Shown here in pieces: positions 5,621 to 23,486 of a DNA stretch of 27,648 bases. This DNA comes from a virus. The position numbers and the translations under genes are program-made. Each line of letters starts with the position of its first letter. Positions within the stretch are counted from its first letter, which is position 1. The stretch is from positions 1 through 27,648 of the IMG/VR virus record IMGVR_UViG_3300035689_000068. One strand, written 5' to 3'. The notes under the pieces are model-generated. The model had not been told where the DNA came from, ran no database searches, and was given only the letters and a program-made list of their open reading frames with translations.

Positions 5621-5998
5621 CTACAAGATATTGTCTACACCATAGTACTGTATTAGGCTGTAGAGTTGATGCACTAGTGGCTGTAGTTTCCAATCATTAT
5701 CAGTAGAATCAATGAATGAGAAAAACGCTTTTTTGTCAAACCAACTTGCATCAACTTTGGCACAAATTTCTGCACCGTCTACATAGGTTTGTTTCCATGT
5801 CCTAGAGCCGTCTGCATCATTGCTGCGATATAATACCGTACAGTCACCAATATCGCCCCAACCAGAGTTATACGATATAGCTAGGTTATATTCTTCAAGC
5901 GATTCTTCAAGACTTGCATCAATACCGAAAAAGCCTTTCTCTTGCAGAAGTTCGTAATCTTTTTCTTCTGCTCTTTTTATCAAGTTGTATTGAACCAT
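5621..5998 (-). CDS. Hypothetical early protein, acidic
   Basis: A 125-residue acidic protein, aromatic-rich (YNSGWGDIGD, KQTYVDGAEICAKVDASWFDKKAFFSF). The GAGG upstream of the ATG at 5998 is 12 nt away and therefore weak. It stands between two spacers of 101 and 346 nt, so it may belong to a separate transcript. No function is recognised. Confidence 0.65.
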   Translation of the reverse strand: MVQYNLIKRAEEKDYELLQEKGFFGIDASLEESLEEYNLAISYNSGWGDIGDCTVLYRSNDADGSRTWKQTYVDGAEICAKVDASWFDKKAFFSFIDSTDNDWKLQPLVHQLYSLIQYYGVDNIL

Positions 5999-6050
5999 TT
6001 TATTTCATTGCCTCATAGATAGTTTGAGATTTTTTTGGGGAAAATCGAAA

Positions 6051-6147
6051 TTATGGGATAGGGTTACAAAGGGTACGGGTACTTTTTTTCTAGAGAATAT
6101 TTTATTTCTAGATGGGGTACAATAACCCCTCACCCCTTATCCCATAA
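6051..6147. repeat. Large imperfect inverted repeat
   Basis: The outer arms TTATGGGATA (6051-6060) and TATCCCATAA (6138-6147) are perfect complements. Inside them GGGTTA (6061-6066) matches TAACCC (6123-6128), GTAC (6079-6082) matches GTAC (6117-6120), and TCTAGA (6089-6094) matches TCTAGA (6107-6112) around a 12-nt AT-only loop with one G. The whole 97 bp can fold as a long, bulged stem in RNA or as a cruciform in DNA. Confidence 0.55.
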
Positions 6148-6304
6148 TGTTACAAGCTTTTAAAATACACTTGCAACCTAATACACCAAACACAAACATC
6201 AACATACTTTGGTGATTCTGCAACATCAAAGTTATGGCAGAACCAAAAACCTCGATATTGACTTGGCACGATGTCAAGATACATGATGTAACCTCACGAT
6301 AACA

Positions 6305-6341
6305 ACTAGCGTTAGTGCTAGTCTTAGCTGTGCTGTCAGCT
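6305..6341 (-). terminator. Tandem hairpins after the 6345-6587 gene
   Basis: ACTAGC (6305-6310) pairs with GCTAGT (6317-6322), and AGCTG (6326-6330) pairs with CAGCT (6337-6341). Both lie immediately downstream of the leftward stop at 6345. There is no U tract, so factor-independent termination is uncertain; they could stabilise the 3' end or attenuate transcription. Confidence 0.35.
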
Positions 6342-6344
6342 TAT

Positions 6345-6587
6345 TTATACAATTTCAATCAATGTAATACGTTCTTGTTTATCTTTTAGTGTTTGAAGTT
6401 TACGTTCTAAATCCCGAATATCTCTAGAGATAATGTTAAGAGCCTTATCTTTATGCTCTTCTAAAATAGGCTCATCAGGATGTAAGATGTAGTTTGAATA
6501 TAGCTTATCGTAGTAAGCATCAGTATTTTCACCCATTGCAGAATGAAGCCTTCTTCGGTCTAATGATTCTTTAGTTAATACACTCAT
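6345..6587 (-). CDS. Small helical hypothetical protein, first gene of leftward cluster
   Basis: An 80-residue protein with a very strong AAGGAGA site 7 nt before the ATG at 6587. The C-terminal part (residues about 42-76, EEHKDKALNIISRDIRDLERKL and onward) has the spacing of a coiled coil, with a beta-like ITLIEIV end. No domain is recognised. It is the first gene after the non-coding control region, so it would be the first product of a leftward early transcript that carries the boxA-like leader elements. Confidence 0.75.
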   Translation of the reverse strand: MSVLTKESLDRRRLHSAMGENTDAYYDKLYSNYILHPDEPILEEHKDKALNIISRDIRDLERKLQTLKDKQERITLIEIV

Positions 6588-6631
6588 AATCTTATCTCCT
6601 TAGTTATTTCAAGTGATAAGCTTTACAGCAC

Positions 6632-6650
6632 AGTTAGGACTAGACTAACT
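6632..6650. other. Inverted repeat in leftward leader
   Basis: AGTTAG (6632-6637) and CTAACT (6645-6650) are perfect complements around GACTAGA. The element lies 45 nt upstream of the first leftward start codon, so it would be in the 5' untranslated RNA. Confidence 0.3.
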
Positions 6651-6750
6651 TAACTTGTTTTATTTGCTTTGCTGACTTTAAGTTATAGCAGTATTACAGC
6701 TAACAGACTTTACTAAAGCATTGCATTTACAATTAAGTAGTTTTGTCTTA

Positions 6751-6772
6751 AACGGTTTACTAACCAACCGTT
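6751..6772. other. Inverted repeat in leftward leader
   Basis: AACGGTT (6751-6757) and AACCGTT (6766-6772) form a perfect 7-bp stem around an 8-nt loop. It may fold in the leader RNA of the leftward transcript or serve as an operator. Confidence 0.35.
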
Positions 6773-7050
6773 AGGTTATATCTAGCAGTGCTAGGCTTAA
6801 CTATTCTTACGATTCTACCCATTAAGCGAGATAGACAACGTTTGTCATCGTAATGACTCAATCACGAGATACTAAGCATAAGCTGAATTACGAGTATTTT
6901 CCGAATAACTCAGTCTTATCTTTTCACTCTCACATAACTAACCGTACTTTTCCACTCGCAACCTTATCACAGGATATTTTTTACACAGGTACTAAGCTTT
7001 GACACTCAAGACTGATTACTTGATGTGATTTGACGTTAGTCTATATTCAG

Positions 7051-7094
7051 TTTTCAAGGTACATTGCATAGCCTTGTAGCGCTGGAGAACCCAG
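7051..7094 (-). promoter_or_regulatory. BoxA-like element with upstream hairpin (nut-like site 2)
   Basis: Read leftward, a small hairpin CTGG-GTTCT-CCAG (7094-7082) with a 5-nt loop is followed after 21 nt by ACCTTGAAAA (7060-7051), which continues as CTGAATATAG. From memory, the boxA antitermination element in cyanobacterial 16S-23S spacers contains GAACCTTGAAAA, often followed by CTGCATAG, with a boxB hairpin upstream. The match and order are good, but function is inferred. Confidence 0.45.
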
Positions 7095-7150
7095 ATACTT
7101 GCTAAACTTTTTTAACTTCCTTATAGCTTTGCATACTTCTTTTTGGTTGT

Positions 7151-7175
7151 CAACACTTTTTTAAAATTGGTGTTG
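7151..7175. other. Interrupted palindrome CAACAC...GTGTTG
   Basis: CAACAC (7151-7156) and GTGTTG (7170-7175) are perfect complements separated by 13 AT-rich bases. It lies between the two boxA-like elements and could be an operator or an RNA hairpin. Confidence 0.3.
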
Positions 7176-7194
7176 AGCCAGAAGAAATATGAAA

Positions 7195-7242
7195 TTTTCA
7201 AGGTGCTTAGAGATTTGCTTAGCTAGACTTGGCGCTTTGCGC
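7195..7242 (-). promoter_or_regulatory. BoxA-like element with upstream hairpin (nut-like site 1)
   Basis: Read leftward, a GCGC-AAA-GCGC hairpin (7242-7232) is followed after 27 nt by a second exact ACCTTGAAAA (7204-7195). It is 144 bp upstream, in transcript terms, of the other copy. Two identical hairpin-plus-boxA units in the leader of the leftward cluster resemble a duplicated nut site. Confidence 0.42.
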
Positions 7243-7266
7243 TTCGTTTTGCTTATCTCGTATCTC

Positions 7267-7328
7267 ATGTAAACCAATATAAACCCTATCGATTAAAATG
7301 TAAACCCCCCCCCTGTAGCATGTAAACG
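7267..7328. repeat. Three ATGTAAAC repeats plus a degenerate copy
   Basis: ATGTAAAC occurs at 7267-7274, 7298-7305 and 7320-7327, with a degenerate ATATAAAC at 7277-7284. An inverted copy (GTTTACAT) is at 8303-8310, next to the first rightward gene. A run of nine C residues occupies 7305-7313. The element could be a binding site for a phage or host regulator. Confidence 0.45.
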
Positions 7329-7346
7329 TTTAAAAGTGGCTGTAAG

Positions 7347-7361
7347 CTATACACCGTATAG
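7347..7361. promoter_or_regulatory. Operator-like palindrome CTATAC-ACC-GTATAG
   Basis: A perfect 6-bp inverted repeat with a 3-bp spacer, a form typical of binding sites for dimeric helix-turn-helix proteins. It lies in the leader side of the control region, downstream (leftward) of the candidate leftward promoter. Confidence 0.4.
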
Positions 7362-7425
7362 ATAAAAAAGTTTGAAAATTCTTTTTTGTCCCGTAAATTT
7401 CGTATTAGCATATATCGCGTATGTA

Positions 7426-7461
7426 TGTATTCTCTCTAGTGTTTAGTTTGTATTCTCTCTA
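7426..7461. repeat. Direct repeat TGTATTCTCTCTA, two copies, 23-bp period
   Basis: The 13-bp word is exact at 7426-7438 and 7449-7461. The period of 23 bp places both copies on nearly the same face of the helix, which suits cooperative protein binding. Confidence 0.5.
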
Positions 7462-7590
7462 CACTGCCATTTTTTGGTATCTCTAAGACTTTGTTAGTCT
7501 ACTTAGCTGTATTTGTATGTTTGTTCGTATCACCTAGGCTTACATCTTCAAAATTTGGGGCTATTTTCAATCGGATATTTTTAATCTCCC

Positions 7591-7620
7591 ATTATATTAT
7601 TTTCATGTTCGTTATGTGAG
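7591..7620 (-). promoter_or_regulatory. Candidate leftward early promoter
   Basis: On the minus strand a perfect -10 box TATAAT (7596-7591) is preceded by CTCACA (7620-7615) at an 18-bp spacing, which matches four of six consensus -35 positions. It would produce a leader of about 1 kb that carries both boxA-like elements before the first leftward gene. Other promoters in the region are possible. Confidence 0.35.
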
Positions 7621-7758
7621 GGTAAGTGAGGTTCTTTTTTATTTCTCCTTAGTGAAAGTTGTCTGAACGCTTTATTTATGCGCTGAAAGCATTATACAGT
7701 ATAGAGTGTAGCTTAATCTGTATCGTAGGACACTGAATTTATAATGAAAAGGATGATA

Positions 7759-7788
7759 TTTGACTTAGAGATAGATAAGGGATATATG
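7759..7788 (+). promoter_or_regulatory. Weak candidate rightward promoter
   Basis: TTGACT (7759-7764) and TATATG (7783-7788) are spaced by 18 bp. It would transcribe towards the Fur-like element and the rightward block. The support is only similarity to the sigma-70 consensus. Confidence 0.25.
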
Positions 7789-7850
7789 ATATTTGTGTGA
7801 GGGAAGTATGGGATATGCTCATGTGATGTTCGTATATACGAGAGTTAAAC

Positions 7851-7881
7851 GAGAATGAGAATGAGAATGATTATCATTTGC
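7851..7881. promoter_or_regulatory. Fur-box-like element with GAGAAT hexamer repeats
   Basis: Three tandem GAGAAT hexamers (7851-7868) run into GATTATCATTTGC. The 19-mer at 7863-7881 matches the classical Fur box GATAATGATAATCATTATC at 15 of 19 positions, and its core AATGAT-T-ATCATT (7866-7878) is a perfect palindrome. Host Fur binding is inferred from the match only. Confidence 0.4.
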
Positions 7882-7891
7882 TTCCCATCAT

Positions 7892-7905
7892 TAGCTAATT
7901 AGCTA
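7892..7905. promoter_or_regulatory. Perfect 14-bp palindrome TAGCTAATTAGCTA
   Basis: A gapless palindrome 11 bp to the right of the Fur-like element. It could be an operator, although AT-rich palindromes of this length can arise by chance. Confidence 0.3.
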
Positions 7906-7967
7906 CTTCAATAAGTAAACACGCATCTAATTAAACATATAGCAACGAGTTTGCGCCATCACAGCAT

Positions 7968-7987
7968 TGTTCGATAATACTCGAACA
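7968..7987. promoter_or_regulatory. Operator-like palindrome TGTTCGA-N6-TCGAACA
   Basis: Perfect 7-bp arms are separated by TAATAC, for a total of 20 bp, the size expected for a dimeric repressor site. The arm orientation is the reverse of the CGAAC-N4-GTTCG SOS box, so I do not call it a LexA site. The BRO/KilA-like or XRE-like proteins encoded in this window are possible ligands. Confidence 0.45.
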
Positions 7988-8007
7988 TTCATACATACTA
8001 TGAAACG

Positions 8008-8057
8008 TTAGCAAAACAGCGTATTCGATTAGCAAAGTTCTTTATACAGTTAGCAAA
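8008..8057. repeat. Three TTAGCAAA iterons at exact 21-bp period
   Basis: TTAGCAAA is present at 8008-8015, 8029-8036 and 8050-8057, so the start-to-start distance is 21 bp both times. That is two helical turns, which places all copies on one face of the DNA, as in replication iterons or cooperative operators. TTTATACAG also occurs twice nearby (8041-8049, 8072-8080). Confidence 0.55.
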
Positions 8058-8137
8058 AGTATAAGGGAAATTTTATACAGCCTACTCAATCGCCGTAGGG
8101 CTACGAAGTGTCCCGATGATGACGATGATAAATAGTT

Positions 8138-8315
8138 AACTATGTAATTACAAAGATAGATGCCAAAATAAGCCCTTAGCACTTAAAATCAAAATAACCA
8201 CTTACAAAGATACAGCAATTTGCCTACAAGGATAAATAAGCGAATCCAACCTTATCTTTGTAAATCGAAAAATACCTTACATAGTTTTAGGTATGCTACA
8301 ATGTTTACATAGTTT
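8138..8315. repeat. Two interleaved operator-like repeat sets upstream of first rightward gene
   Basis: Set A, TTACAAAGATA: exact at 8148-8158 and 8202-8212, two mismatches at 8224-8234, and an exact inverted copy at 8253-8263. Set B, TTACATAGTT(T): 11-bp direct copies at 8277-8287 and 8305-8315, and a 10-bp inverted copy at 8138-8147 that abuts a set A site. Both sets share TTACA, so they may be variants bound by one protein. Confidence 0.55.
8292..8302 (+). promoter_or_regulatory. Candidate extended -10 promoter of rightward block
   Basis: TATGCTACAAT fits the extended -10 form TGnTAnAAT; no good -35 box is present at 16-18 bp. Transcription would begin near 8309 and leave a short leader of about 26 nt before the start at 8335. 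The TTACATAGTTT repeats flank it on both sides, so a bound protein would be expected to control it. Confidence 0.4.
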
Positions 8316-8334
8316 AAAAAAGTAATGATTGTAG

Positions 8335-9024
8335 ATGACCACAGATTCCCAATTAGTCCATAGTCTGCGAACAGAGTTGAAACGTATACCACCAGACCTA
8401 GAAATCGTAAAACAGGCAGTAGCCGAGCTTACAGACGTAGATTCCGAACCGTCTAAGACTAAAGTAGCTACCTTGATTACTATGATGGTCAGTCAATTTG
8501 CATCTGAGTTATCTAAGCTTACAAAAGCTCAAGATGAAGGTAAAACTATAAAACCTAATAAGTTGGCGCTCGTACTTAAAAATAATGAGTACCTACTTGC
8601 AGATTTTTCAGTTATCTTTGATGAGAATAAGGAAAATCCAAAAATTTACTACAAAGGTGCAAGTGACGCGGAGACAATCTATAAAGCTTATGACTACCTC
8701 CGTAGAGAGTTGGCAGCATTTATTGGTTACAGGGAGTTTGACAACTCCACTATTGCCAGAGCCATCATGCAAGCCAAGAACTACCTTGAATACGACAAAG
8801 AGCTTTTTGATTGCGACATTATAAACGCCTTGGTAATTGAAAAAGCTTACGAACTAAAACAATCAAGAGCTAACAGAAAAAATATTACTATCCCAGCACT
8901 AAAAAAAGTAATCTGCTCTGTAGAGCTTTCTACACAAGAAATTGAGAGTATTTTATTAGCTGCTGGTTGGGAAGTTGTAAAATCGGGTTCTTGCGCTACC
9001 AAATTCTTTAGACCTACCTATTAA
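8335..9024 (+). CDS. Putative DNA-binding protein, first gene of rightward block
   Basis: A 229-residue protein from the ATG at 8335; there is no clear ribosome binding site, but an extended -10 promoter lies about 30 nt upstream. The N-terminal 150 residues are mostly helical and unrecognised. The last ~55 residues (NITIPALKKVICSVELSTQEIE, then a G-W turn and KFFRPTY) look like a winged helix. They align by eye with the C-terminus of the next gene product, in that both have an 'LK-x-V' helix, a second helix, then G-W or G-Y and a final aromatic strand. A role as a regulator or replication protein binding the upstream repeat array is plausible but inferred. Confidence 0.75.
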   Translation: MTTDSQLVHSLRTELKRIPPDLEIVKQAVAELTDVDSEPSKTKVATLITMMVSQFASELSKLTKAQDEGKTIKPNKLALVLKNNEYLLADFSVIFDENKENPKIYYKGASDAETIYKAYDYLRRELAAFIGYREFDNSTIARAIMQAKNYLEYDKELFDCDIINALVIEKAYELKQSRANRKNITIPALKKVICSVELSTQEIESILLAAGWEVVKSGSCATKFFRPTY

Positions 9025-22500: not shown

Positions 22501-22653
22501 CGCGATTGGAATACTGACGCACAAATAGGACAAGCCACTGCAATAACTACGAGTGGCTTGAACATCAATTTAGATTCATTTGTGGTGTACAGAAGGATTT
22601 CGCTTTACAATGGTGTAAGCTTCTTACCTCCTAGTAGTGCTTATGCTGTCTAA
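19507..22653 (+). CDS. Large modular adhesin/tail fibre with four lectin-like domains
   Basis: A 1048-residue protein. Three domains of about 210-230 residues (roughly 20-250, 340-555, 650-860) each begin with an 'N-x-L-x-x-x-Y' type strand and end with a hallmark helix of the kind 'G-x-x-A-x-x-I ... L-S/D-x-x-E-x-x-x-x-L-x-x-x-Y' (for example DILASVEAKLAEIYV near 231-245). Between them are two ~85-residue Ig- or cadherin-like linkers (about 255-335 and 555-640). The C-terminus (about 868-1048) is a classical LamG/concanavalin A-like domain (GDFTIAGWLL, FNHIALTRQNGTLRLYVGGV). It is probably a host-recognition protein. The stop overlaps the stop of the opposite-strand gene. Confidence 0.85.
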   Translation: MKLSAAYNHSFSAGYSYTSQIYDVAKLIPNLNGLYLCDPDYLTFSKIGASETNQVQTIYNLLFDGNFLQASSNSPTLITGDSQFNGQPSIDFANSGNQSLLFRSPVKVGTLIIVYLTRVAGSFPVYSFGSIAGDPPTFFDIFRSGVTSLWAEQPLANNSIYNATSRINSRSVSPDVFIPLNNTRILSVTNIDNANQYEIVSGFGGSASGGDLSVRGKIAAIITAESPCPLDILASVEAKLAEIYVNYNGVSISSQPSFRLFVDAFFSFDFATIAVDEFFDIVSYTYVSPSGLGLSFTGSILSGYVPEVFDGEFTISITNSNSMVSTFSFSLETVRPDPFVLDFPQQSNITVALSTLKDSDDIPYGIYADTFGNIVKWEDCRRLPNKPLYIASDIGTNQITYDGATASFITNSSFNPRTLLGTAVNCKTLIWVYKQKQIGERFMANGFPDIFANGVLWTTTTSEEIFGTTAITQLNTKVNKVAVNAFNYRFPNEYGAIITATNSGTSIPFSGLTSQLKGELLYFIGWSVALGDDELATATHLLANKFFDSTLLLFSTETEFRYTEDVIVNLNKKVTEIAGNAVDYEILVNHYSATIDGDDLTFTCPTDDFIEFTIRAYTDAESITFSFNVSITLLTNQLYIDLKGLLNTFSSFFIVTPDAVTLSGGNILQLDEYRTNGQGLLGVNAVNYVTPTQLDGLPAARFNIDGSSRLDFGTPSSSSGYCFIMTYIRKAGQTGAAFLFGQDSNNIFNSGNDGELLATDFFGDVWANGAERERDYVLPEESLSVVIFNSTDLVTINSIAKDRVFDDRSVKGSVAMFCIVDYNIEPELFTPIEQSIRDYYQPAKIVTLLNFDSSITDQSYRAKTLTSNISVLDTVTKKFGAASFPISKNSVPAYVQIPNDSDYSFLSGDFTIAGWLLTDRATDGEVVNIYSQQGLAIFFSTDRLYLGRSLILGLALFSVALPLSSTVFNHIALTRQNGTLRLYVGGVRVYEAVDDYEYRDWNTDAQIGQATAITTSGLNINLDSFVVYRRISLYNGVSFLPPSSAYAV

Positions 22654-23486
22654 GCGGCTAAATCAGCCAAAGCAAATTTAGAGTAGGCAACTTGAAGGAT
22701 AGCAAAGTCGTCTTTTGTGTAAACAGAGACAAGGGATTTGTTACCATTAACAATACGATAATCTTTGAGGGGGTCTTTTTGTTTCAGGCTTTTATAAGTC
22801 TCGCAAGTCATACGCCCAAGTCCTGACATCTTCCCTTTGGAAAGAGTAGTCCCACGAAACTCTAGAAGCCACTCAGCCAAAGACCAATTGGGGATATCAC
22901 CAGCAAGTTCTTTAGGAGTAAAGATATCTTCTTTTTCTGCTTCTCGCCTTACAATCTCATCTACAAGAATATTGATGCCATCCATTCTAGAATCTGCAAC
23001 GCGCTTGACTGTTTTCCAATCTCTAACTTCTTTTGTTAAGGCATTGACACTAGAAATTAAAGTGTTCATTGTCTCGTTCAAGGAGTTATTGTCAGAATTG
23101 GCAGAGAATTTAGAAATCTCTTTAATCCAATTGTGCATACCTTGTTTTGCAAACTTCATCGCACTAAATTTTGCAGTTTCGTTTACAGCCCTAGAGTCGA
23201 AAGCATAGTAAAAAATAATCTCGGTAGCAGCTTCCGTAGTAATAATTTTAGCTTGCTGTTCTGAAACAAGTTCAGTATGGAAAACGTCGCCCTCGAAAGA
23301 CTGTAAAGCTTTTGACGTACTACCACTCCGAGAGCTACCAATAAGGTTACGAATACTAGCCTCAGTAACACCGCAAAGCCTAGCTAGCCCAACTTGACTA
23401 ATACCAGAGCGACTGCCATCATTTGAAATATAAAATTCAACACCATTCTCAGCGATTACAGGAGATACAAGTTCTTTGTGTGACAT
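22650..23486 (-). CDS. BRO/KilA-type putative DNA-binding regulator
   Basis: A 278-residue protein. Residues 28-48 (ISQVGLARLCGVTEASIRNLI) form a helix-turn-helix in which Ala-Arg-Leu-Cys-Gly-Val fills the turn. It is followed by VSEQQAKIITTEAATEIIFYYA and NETAKFSAMKFAKQGMHNWIKEI, a pattern I know from phage-antirepressor-like proteins widespread in cyanobacteria (memory only). The C-terminal part has a helical region and a second basic domain (GKMSGLGRMTCETYKSLKQ). It probably regulates phage transcription. The start at 23486 has no ribosome binding site but has an extended -10 promoter about 35 nt upstream. Its stop overlaps the adhesin stop. Confidence 0.75.
   Translation of the reverse strand: MSHKELVSPVIAENGVEFYISNDGSRSGISQVGLARLCGVTEASIRNLIGSSRSGSTSKALQSFEGDVFHTELVSEQQAKIITTEAATEIIFYYAFDSRAVNETAKFSAMKFAKQGMHNWIKEISKFSANSDNNSLNETMNTLISSVNALTKEVRDWKTVKRVADSRMDGINILVDEIVRREAEKEDIFTPKELAGDIPNWSLAEWLLEFRGTTLSKGKMSGLGRMTCETYKSLKQKDPLKDYRIVNGNKSLVSVYTKDDFAILQVAYSKFALADLAA

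Follow-up and report, generated by a model that had tools for sequence, protein, structure and literature searches.

Introduction

Transcription that depends on boxA is understood mainly as the protection of untranslated RNA against Rho and as an aid to rRNA folding, while the use of boxA by phages is known mainly from lambdoid nut sites. What, then, should be made of a host-type boxA that is conserved in a phage whose host genus seems to have no Rho? Such a situation separates the two roles of boxA, and makes the phage leader described here a small test system for boxA action without Rho.

In Escherichia coli, the rRNA antitermination complex needs boxA, which also suffices to form it (PMC10250234). 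The same paper presents a model in which NusB keeps hold of boxA as the RNA is looped out, thus letting the leader and trailer pair, and reports that deletion of boxA lowers 30S activity only about 3-fold. In cyanobacteria, the published boxA is GAACCTTGAAAA, with CTGCATA as the D4 element (PMC8461337). The trn operon of Anabaena (PMC10272220) is the comparison case for leaders of tRNA arrays, and a TrcR operator is reported at its promoter. Cyanobacteria lack Rho, as stated in PMC13289151. Among the papers listed by a literature search that left most subscription journals uncovered, none dealt in its title or opening abstract lines with a cyanophage boxA or with boxA at tRNA arrays.

The Phage and Its Leaders

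The window, by which we mean the whole stretch of DNA analysed, is a virus record of 27,648 bases with a terminase large subunit. Its relatedness to two Pseudanabaena phages, Pam2 (38% of 25 kb covered, 77% identity) and PA-SR01 (34% of 25 kb covered, 79% identity), points to a Pseudanabaena-type host, and the phage is one of a family of viruses of freshwater cyanobacteria. The leader lies in a 1.7-kb stretch around the word ACCTTGAAAA that is without ORFs of at least 60 aa and is flanked by divergent genes, the rightward ORFs running from 8335 and the leftward ones from 6587. In the order of leftward transcription, its features are as follows:

7276 to 7304, minus strand: promoter P1, TTTACA - 17 nt - TATATT; same class with a 17-nt spacer in 11/11 leaders
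7232 to 7242, minus strand: small hairpin GCGC-AAA-GCGC, 27 nt before boxA copy 1; boxB-like in place only
7187 to 7204, minus strand: boxA copy 1, ACCTTGAAAATTTCATAT, 71 nt after P1; among the leaders compared, found also in L016 only
7125 to 7194 (approximate ends), minus strand: long imperfect hairpin that folds and whose 3' arm contains P2; similar arms in L016, by eye
7125 to 7153, minus strand: promoter P2, TTGACA - 17 nt - AAAGCT; homologue with the same spacer in 8/11 leaders
7082 to 7094, minus strand: small hairpin CTGG-GTTCT-CCAG, 21 nt before boxA copy 2; not common to the leaders
7044 to 7060, minus strand: boxA copy 2, ACCTTGAAAACTGAATA, the conserved element, 64 nt after P2
6647 to 7043, minus strand: noncoding region after boxA, no ORF of at least 60 aa; mosaic among relatives
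6929 to 7043, minus strand: RNA module M1, directly after boxA; common to the window, L008, L014 and PA-SR01
6625 to 6643, minus strand: left arm of the stem enclosing the first ORF
6345 to 6587, minus strand: 80-aa ORF in the stem loop; no PHROGs or Pfam match
6318 to 6336, minus strand: right arm of the stem enclosing the first ORF

The leader of PA-SR01 can be aligned with that of the window, and further leaders were obtained through terminase relatives, through the exact word and through a conserved 18-mer found further down. Eleven distinct leaders, picked because they contain the 18-mer, reach upstream of it (the window, L014, L013, L045, L016, L159, L008, L007, L015, PA-SR01 and Pam2), and a twelfth, L010, comes from a contig that ends soon after boxA and hence lacks the 18-mer. 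Pairs that are the same contig were counted once (L014/L024, L008/L091, L016/L158, L007/L161 and L015/L163). L157 and L160, in which the 18-mer match lies inside coding sequence, were excluded, and L162 is too short upstream to include boxA. Neither word nor 18-mer was found in L006, L009, L011, L012 and L017, which do not extend to the leader because they reach at most 5.3 kb upstream of the terminase, against 6.3 kb in the window. None of 26 Pseudanabaena-genus genomes matched the 701-bp leader, in a search without positive control that shows little, and the leader's matches to Lactobacillus and Klebsiella phages, 34-37 nt only, were taken as chance.

The boxA Word and Its Promoters

The first-pass annotation had picked out two occurrences of ACCTTGAAAA, and the window of 27,648 bases indeed has no others; the two lie on the minus strand, at 7204-7195 and 7060-7051. 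Chance is a poor explanation for them: 0.11 copies are expected, and only one shuffle in 100 attains two. Copy 2 runs on as CTGAATATAG, and over the 18 positions of ACCTTGAAAACTGCATAG it has two mismatches and copy 1 three, with no other site in the window within three mismatches (0.08 expected; two attained in 1/100 shuffles). The duplication that the annotation stressed holds in the window and in L016, where a second boxA-like word follows P1, so that each promoter has its own boxA; across the leaders it is not the rule. The two small hairpins exist at the spacing that had been given for them, but are neither above shuffles in the window nor conserved. When the 60 nt that precede copy 2 are shuffled by mononucleotide, 38% of the shuffles fold equally well or better, and folding the 11 leaders revealed no common hairpin of fixed sequence or position; four of them, the window not included, fold better than 95% of their mononucleotide shuffles.

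P1 and P2 are promoters of the sigma70 type. The promoter expression, which was composed after the leaders had been seen, finds one or two hits per leader, corresponding to P1 and P2, and none other in the 819-1624 nt upstream. Promoter-like sites are no more numerous in the region than in its shuffles (8 vs 8.9), and the case for the promoters therefore rests on their conserved place and spacing. In the 11 leaders measured, boxA starts 13-76 nt past the nearer -10 hexamer, and the order of promoter, boxA and RNA on one strand is constant in all 11. The word thus lies close after a predicted promoter, on the sense strand.

Conservation under Changing Flanks

That related phages should keep the word was a prediction that could be checked, and they do. 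Ten of the 12 comparable leaders carry ACCTTGAMAAYTKAATA, and the other two have a diverged form (AAAATTGAAAACAGAATA in L013 and ACCATGACAACCGAATA in L010), while the flanks are not kept. Six relatives were searched whole, and each has exactly one copy of CCTTGAMAAYTGAATA, against none for the reversed control. When the 11 leaders are aligned without gaps on an anchor, 9-11 of them share the letter in each column of ACCTTGAAAANTGAATA, apart from a C/T column at 6; this has to be read with the anchor in mind, in which TTGA, AA and AATA are fixed, four further positions are partly restricted and ACC is free. Flanking columns within 90 nt agree mostly in 3 to 8 of the 11, with four downstream columns at 9 or 10. 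An unanchored 14-mer search, made in the 400 nt around the anchor, also puts the boxA block first, whether the reference is the window, PA-SR01 or L159, its totals over the ten other leaders being 9, 19 and 15 mismatches respectively, vs medians of 42-46. The RNA that follows the word has been exchanged between relatives, the 11 leaders falling into five kinds of module when sorted by eye. Conservation of the word in 10 of 12 leaders while its flanks turn over is what would be expected of an rRNA-type boxA.

BoxA and Its Factors in the Host Genus

The host genus was chosen through a published mibC primer (PMC7142697) that matches Pseudanabaena cinerea FACHB-1277 (L135) in one contig scan, and the host set consists of 26 genomes of the genus of that strain. 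ACCTTGAMAAYTGNATA occurs at 21 places in 13 of them, and its reversed control at none. Fifteen of these places read ACCTTGAAAACTGCATA, the CTGCATA form, and lead, by eye, into the beginning of 23S rRNA; for the words of L137 and L141, the location in the 16S-23S spacer was confirmed with Rfam. The other six have the phage forms, ending in [CT]TGAATA: ACCTTGAAAACTGAATA (four places), ACCTTGACAACTGAATA (one) and ACCTTGAAAATTGAATA (one). In all six cases a tRNA array follows, its first tRNA 31-81 nt further on, and TTGACA lies upstream of the word; these arrays are those of L138, L144, L148, L149, L150 and L155. The 13 genomes without a match, FACHB-1277 included, are uninformative, since draft assemblies may lack the rRNA. 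In three host-genus genomes, the 16S leaders have TTGACA-17-TA...T promoters and no exact copy of the word; the GAACCTAGACAACC that they contain may be the leader boxA. By eye, the diverged word of L010, which lies in the last 450 bases of its contig on the minus strand, resembles this GAACCTAGACAACC.

How close is the phage leader to these host signals? Like the cyanobacterial 16S-23S spacer described in PMC8461337, it has ACCTTGAAAA followed by CTGNATA on the RNA strand, with structured RNA around; unlike that spacer, it reads CTGAATA rather than CTGCATA, has no conserved boxB hairpin, comes right after promoters and is followed by no rRNA. With the tRNA-array leader of the host genus it shares TTGACA upstream, a short untranslated stretch and then ACCTTGAMAAYTGAATA, whereas the phage window has no tRNA and continues with other RNA modules and with small genes. 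The first-pass annotation had proposed a copied host boxA, of the kind that cyanobacterial rRNA spacers carry. The first half of this stands well, the word matching the published cyanobacterial boxA and D4 as well as the 16S-23S spacers of the genus. The second needs amending, in that the likeness to the spacer boxA is real but CTGAATA is the form of the tRNA-array leader and CTGCATA that of the spacer. In sequence, the phage word can be regarded as the boxA of the host clade, and the phage element is very probably a host-type boxA. This reading is well supported, because of the likeness to the host, the conservation against unlike flanks and the place just after promoters.

The factors were searched for in the same 26 genomes. 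NusB scores above the cut-off in every one, and Rho in none, while the Rho search recovers 8 of 14 known genomes used as control. The weak Rho matches, of about 33 bits in 480-aa frames, presumably reflect ATP synthase. An anti-Rho role of the phage boxA is unlikely, since the host genus has no Rho above the cut-off.

The RNA Downstream and Its Stem-Enclosed ORFs

From boxA on, a region of 463 nt folds modestly better than shuffles (z -1.86, with 5/100 as good). In module M1, which could be compared in four sequences, three of the eight pairs of the hairpin at 7027-7003 have changed on both sides, with all cells paired. For the complete 15-pair structure of this module, the covariation score is attained by 4 of 500 shuffles and the number of pairs changed on both sides by 24 of 500.

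Further on, the first small ORF of the operon sits inside a long stem, and this turns out to be a recurrent arrangement. Of 25 stem rows found initially by conserved arms, six pair arms of two different units and were excluded; 18 of the remaining 19 units, which come from the window, L013, L014, L045, L016, L159, L008, L007, L015, L162 and Pam2 as well as PA-SR01, enclose an ORF of 49-112 aa, and one unit in PA-SR01 has no ORF between its arms. One type of stem, with seven units, has 31 pairable positions, eight of them with changes on both sides, and two constant mismatches (C-A or A-C); these counts come from a hand alignment without shuffle control, MAFFT having shifted L045. None of the 10 proteins tested has a Pfam match at 0.01. 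The stem-enclosed small ORFs look like exchangeable gene cassettes carried in RNA hairpins.

Nothing in the window matches Rfam at the gathering score and ARAGORN detects no tRNA there, so that neither the rRNA genes of an rRNA operon nor the tRNA genes of an array follow the word. A mir-1 match obtained at a relaxed threshold in 5900-8340 falls on both strands of the P2 hairpin and was taken as chance. GOLLD and ROOL, examples of large phage RNAs, appear in neither the Rfam search of the window nor that of 5900-8340.

Proposed Function

The leader is probably a promoter-plus-boxA site at which polymerase modified by host NusB-S10 is loaded, an arrangement suggesting that the virus borrows the host machinery for making long structured RNA. 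Host NusB-S10 would bind boxA in the nascent leader RNA and stay on RNA polymerase, as it presumably does on host rRNA and tRNA-array transcripts. The resulting processive elongation complex would pass the leader hairpins without translation, transcribe and help to fold some 400 nt of noncoding RNA, and then go on into the operon, whose first small genes lie in the loops of covarying or conserved stems. As the host genus appears to be without Rho, resistance to pausing and intrinsic termination is a more likely task for this boxA than Rho protection, and so is tethering of the 5' RNA, by which long-range stems could fold and be processed. That the leader is transcribed, that NusB-S10 binds it, that this alters elongation, folding or processing, and that the operon is early are all points that we infer by analogy. 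A role for boxA beyond rRNA has a parallel in bacterial genes such as suhB (PMC5725501); the present case differs from these in concerning a phage, a cyanobacterial host, a noncoding RNA and an operon of small genes.

A broader proposal, which we put forward tentatively and with some doubt, is that of a mock stable-RNA operon. Here NusB-S10 loaded at boxA would tether the RNA, letting long-range stems form and undergo processing, instead of counteracting a Rho that the host genus seems not to have; each stem would hold an exchangeable small gene in its loop, and several cyanophage lineages would place a host-type boxA at tRNA arrays and leader RNAs. The putative link of boxA to stem-enclosed small genes is both the most novel and the least tested part.

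Could the word serve quite another purpose? It might have nothing to do with NusB and mark a place where the RNA is processed or bound by a protein, or it might act as DNA, as a regulator's site immediately past the promoters. A conserved 17-nt block near promoters would suit such a site, and the NusB role is itself read from sequence; yet the identity to host boxA in two kinds of stable-RNA operon would then be a coincidence, and the constant order of promoter, boxA and RNA on one strand also argues the other way, so we judge this unlikely. Promoters close upstream of a host-type site, with the RNA after it free to change, would also be expected of a decoy, a leader RNA made in such abundance that it ties up the host's NusB-S10 and so reduces rRNA synthesis in the infected cell. 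This is improbable in our view, since it requires very high RNA levels, and a single match in each of six relatives and a site where an operon begins better suit a cis-acting role.

A lambda-like nut site acting with an N-like protein of the phage is more improbable still: a phage leader with a boxA, preceded by hairpins in some cases, does recall one, and N-like proteins are hard to recognise by sequence, but no boxB hairpin is conserved. The likeness to lambdoid nut sites (PMC10250234) lies in a phage leader with a boxA that is bound by NusB-S10 there and predicted to be so here; the differences are the host rRNA-type boxA, the want of a conserved boxB and a host genus without Rho above the cut-off. 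We give very little credence, finally, to the idea that a leader of host rRNA or tRNA has been inherited as a functionless remnant. It would account for the strong likeness to the host tRNA-array leader, for the lack of tRNA or rRNA in the window and for two diverged copies; however, both flanks have diverged or been swapped for several kinds of module, and the word has been kept in 10 of 12 leaders all the same.

The Word in Other Viruses

Related words are present beyond this family, and the word itself is enriched in viral contigs. ACCTTGAAAACTGAATA occurs in 91 of these vs 18 for the reversed word, and only 28 of the 91 loci lie inside a stop-to-stop frame of at least 300 nt, vs 17 of the 18 reversed ones (p 4e-7). 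The 91 contigs form 68 flank clusters, and 54 of these count as noncoding under a different ORF rule. At 36 of 50 places the ORF that comes next points the same way as the word, vs 806 of 1711 random intergenic ones (p 3e-4), and the stretch of 40 nt preceding the word shows more structure than its counterparts at random places (p 4e-6). BLAST with Pseudanabaena rRNA detected rRNA at none of the 91 loci. In phage records, a 37-nt probe gave E values of 0.1 or worse among the matches listed, and these were not used.

A tRNA search, which covered 81 of the 91 loci, placed the word 10-15 nt before a tRNA in five contigs. In four of them, which make up one flank cluster (L049 4721-4737, L052 674-690, L080 2386-2402 and L103 11956-11972), it precedes by 13-15 nt a tRNA-Lys that heads a run of tRNAs; in L048 (7491-7507) a tRNA-Thr within a long array follows it after 10 nt. 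A small part of L103 shows relatedness to Synechococcus phages. The supposition that such a signal is not a standard cyanophage feature fails for the present lineage, and in other cyanophage-like contigs tRNA arrays are preceded by related words. That the word heads tRNA arrays in host and phage alike suggests that boxA serves stable RNA more widely.

Several smaller observations accompany these searches. S-CREM1 and S-EIVl have no copy of the word within two mismatches; in S-CREM1 (L170 5236-5251), ACCTTGACAATTTAAC stands before a tRNA-Lys, by eye at the same place as the word of the L103 type. In a cluster of eight contigs (L036, L037, L042, L047, L063, L088, L100 and L105), the word comes 31-32 nt after a TTGATA-18-TTTAAT-like sequence. 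One of these contigs, L088, partially resembles Synechococcus phage S-EIVl, and in L036 and L047 the ORF after the word seems, by eye, to be interrupted, perhaps by a group I intron.

Two further sites of the window deserve mention. At 22653-23486, on the minus strand, a protein is encoded whose residues 14-132 weakly match the BstA abortive infection family in PHROGs (E 1e-4). Between the divergent operons, at 7866-7878 on the minus strand, AATGATAATCATT is followed by CTCATT; the exact 13-mer is present in 7 of the 11 leaders, and the 17-mer at this site is unique in the window. AATGATAATCATT with CTCATT resembles part of the Fur box consensus, and a site of this kind could link the phage switch to the iron status of the host.
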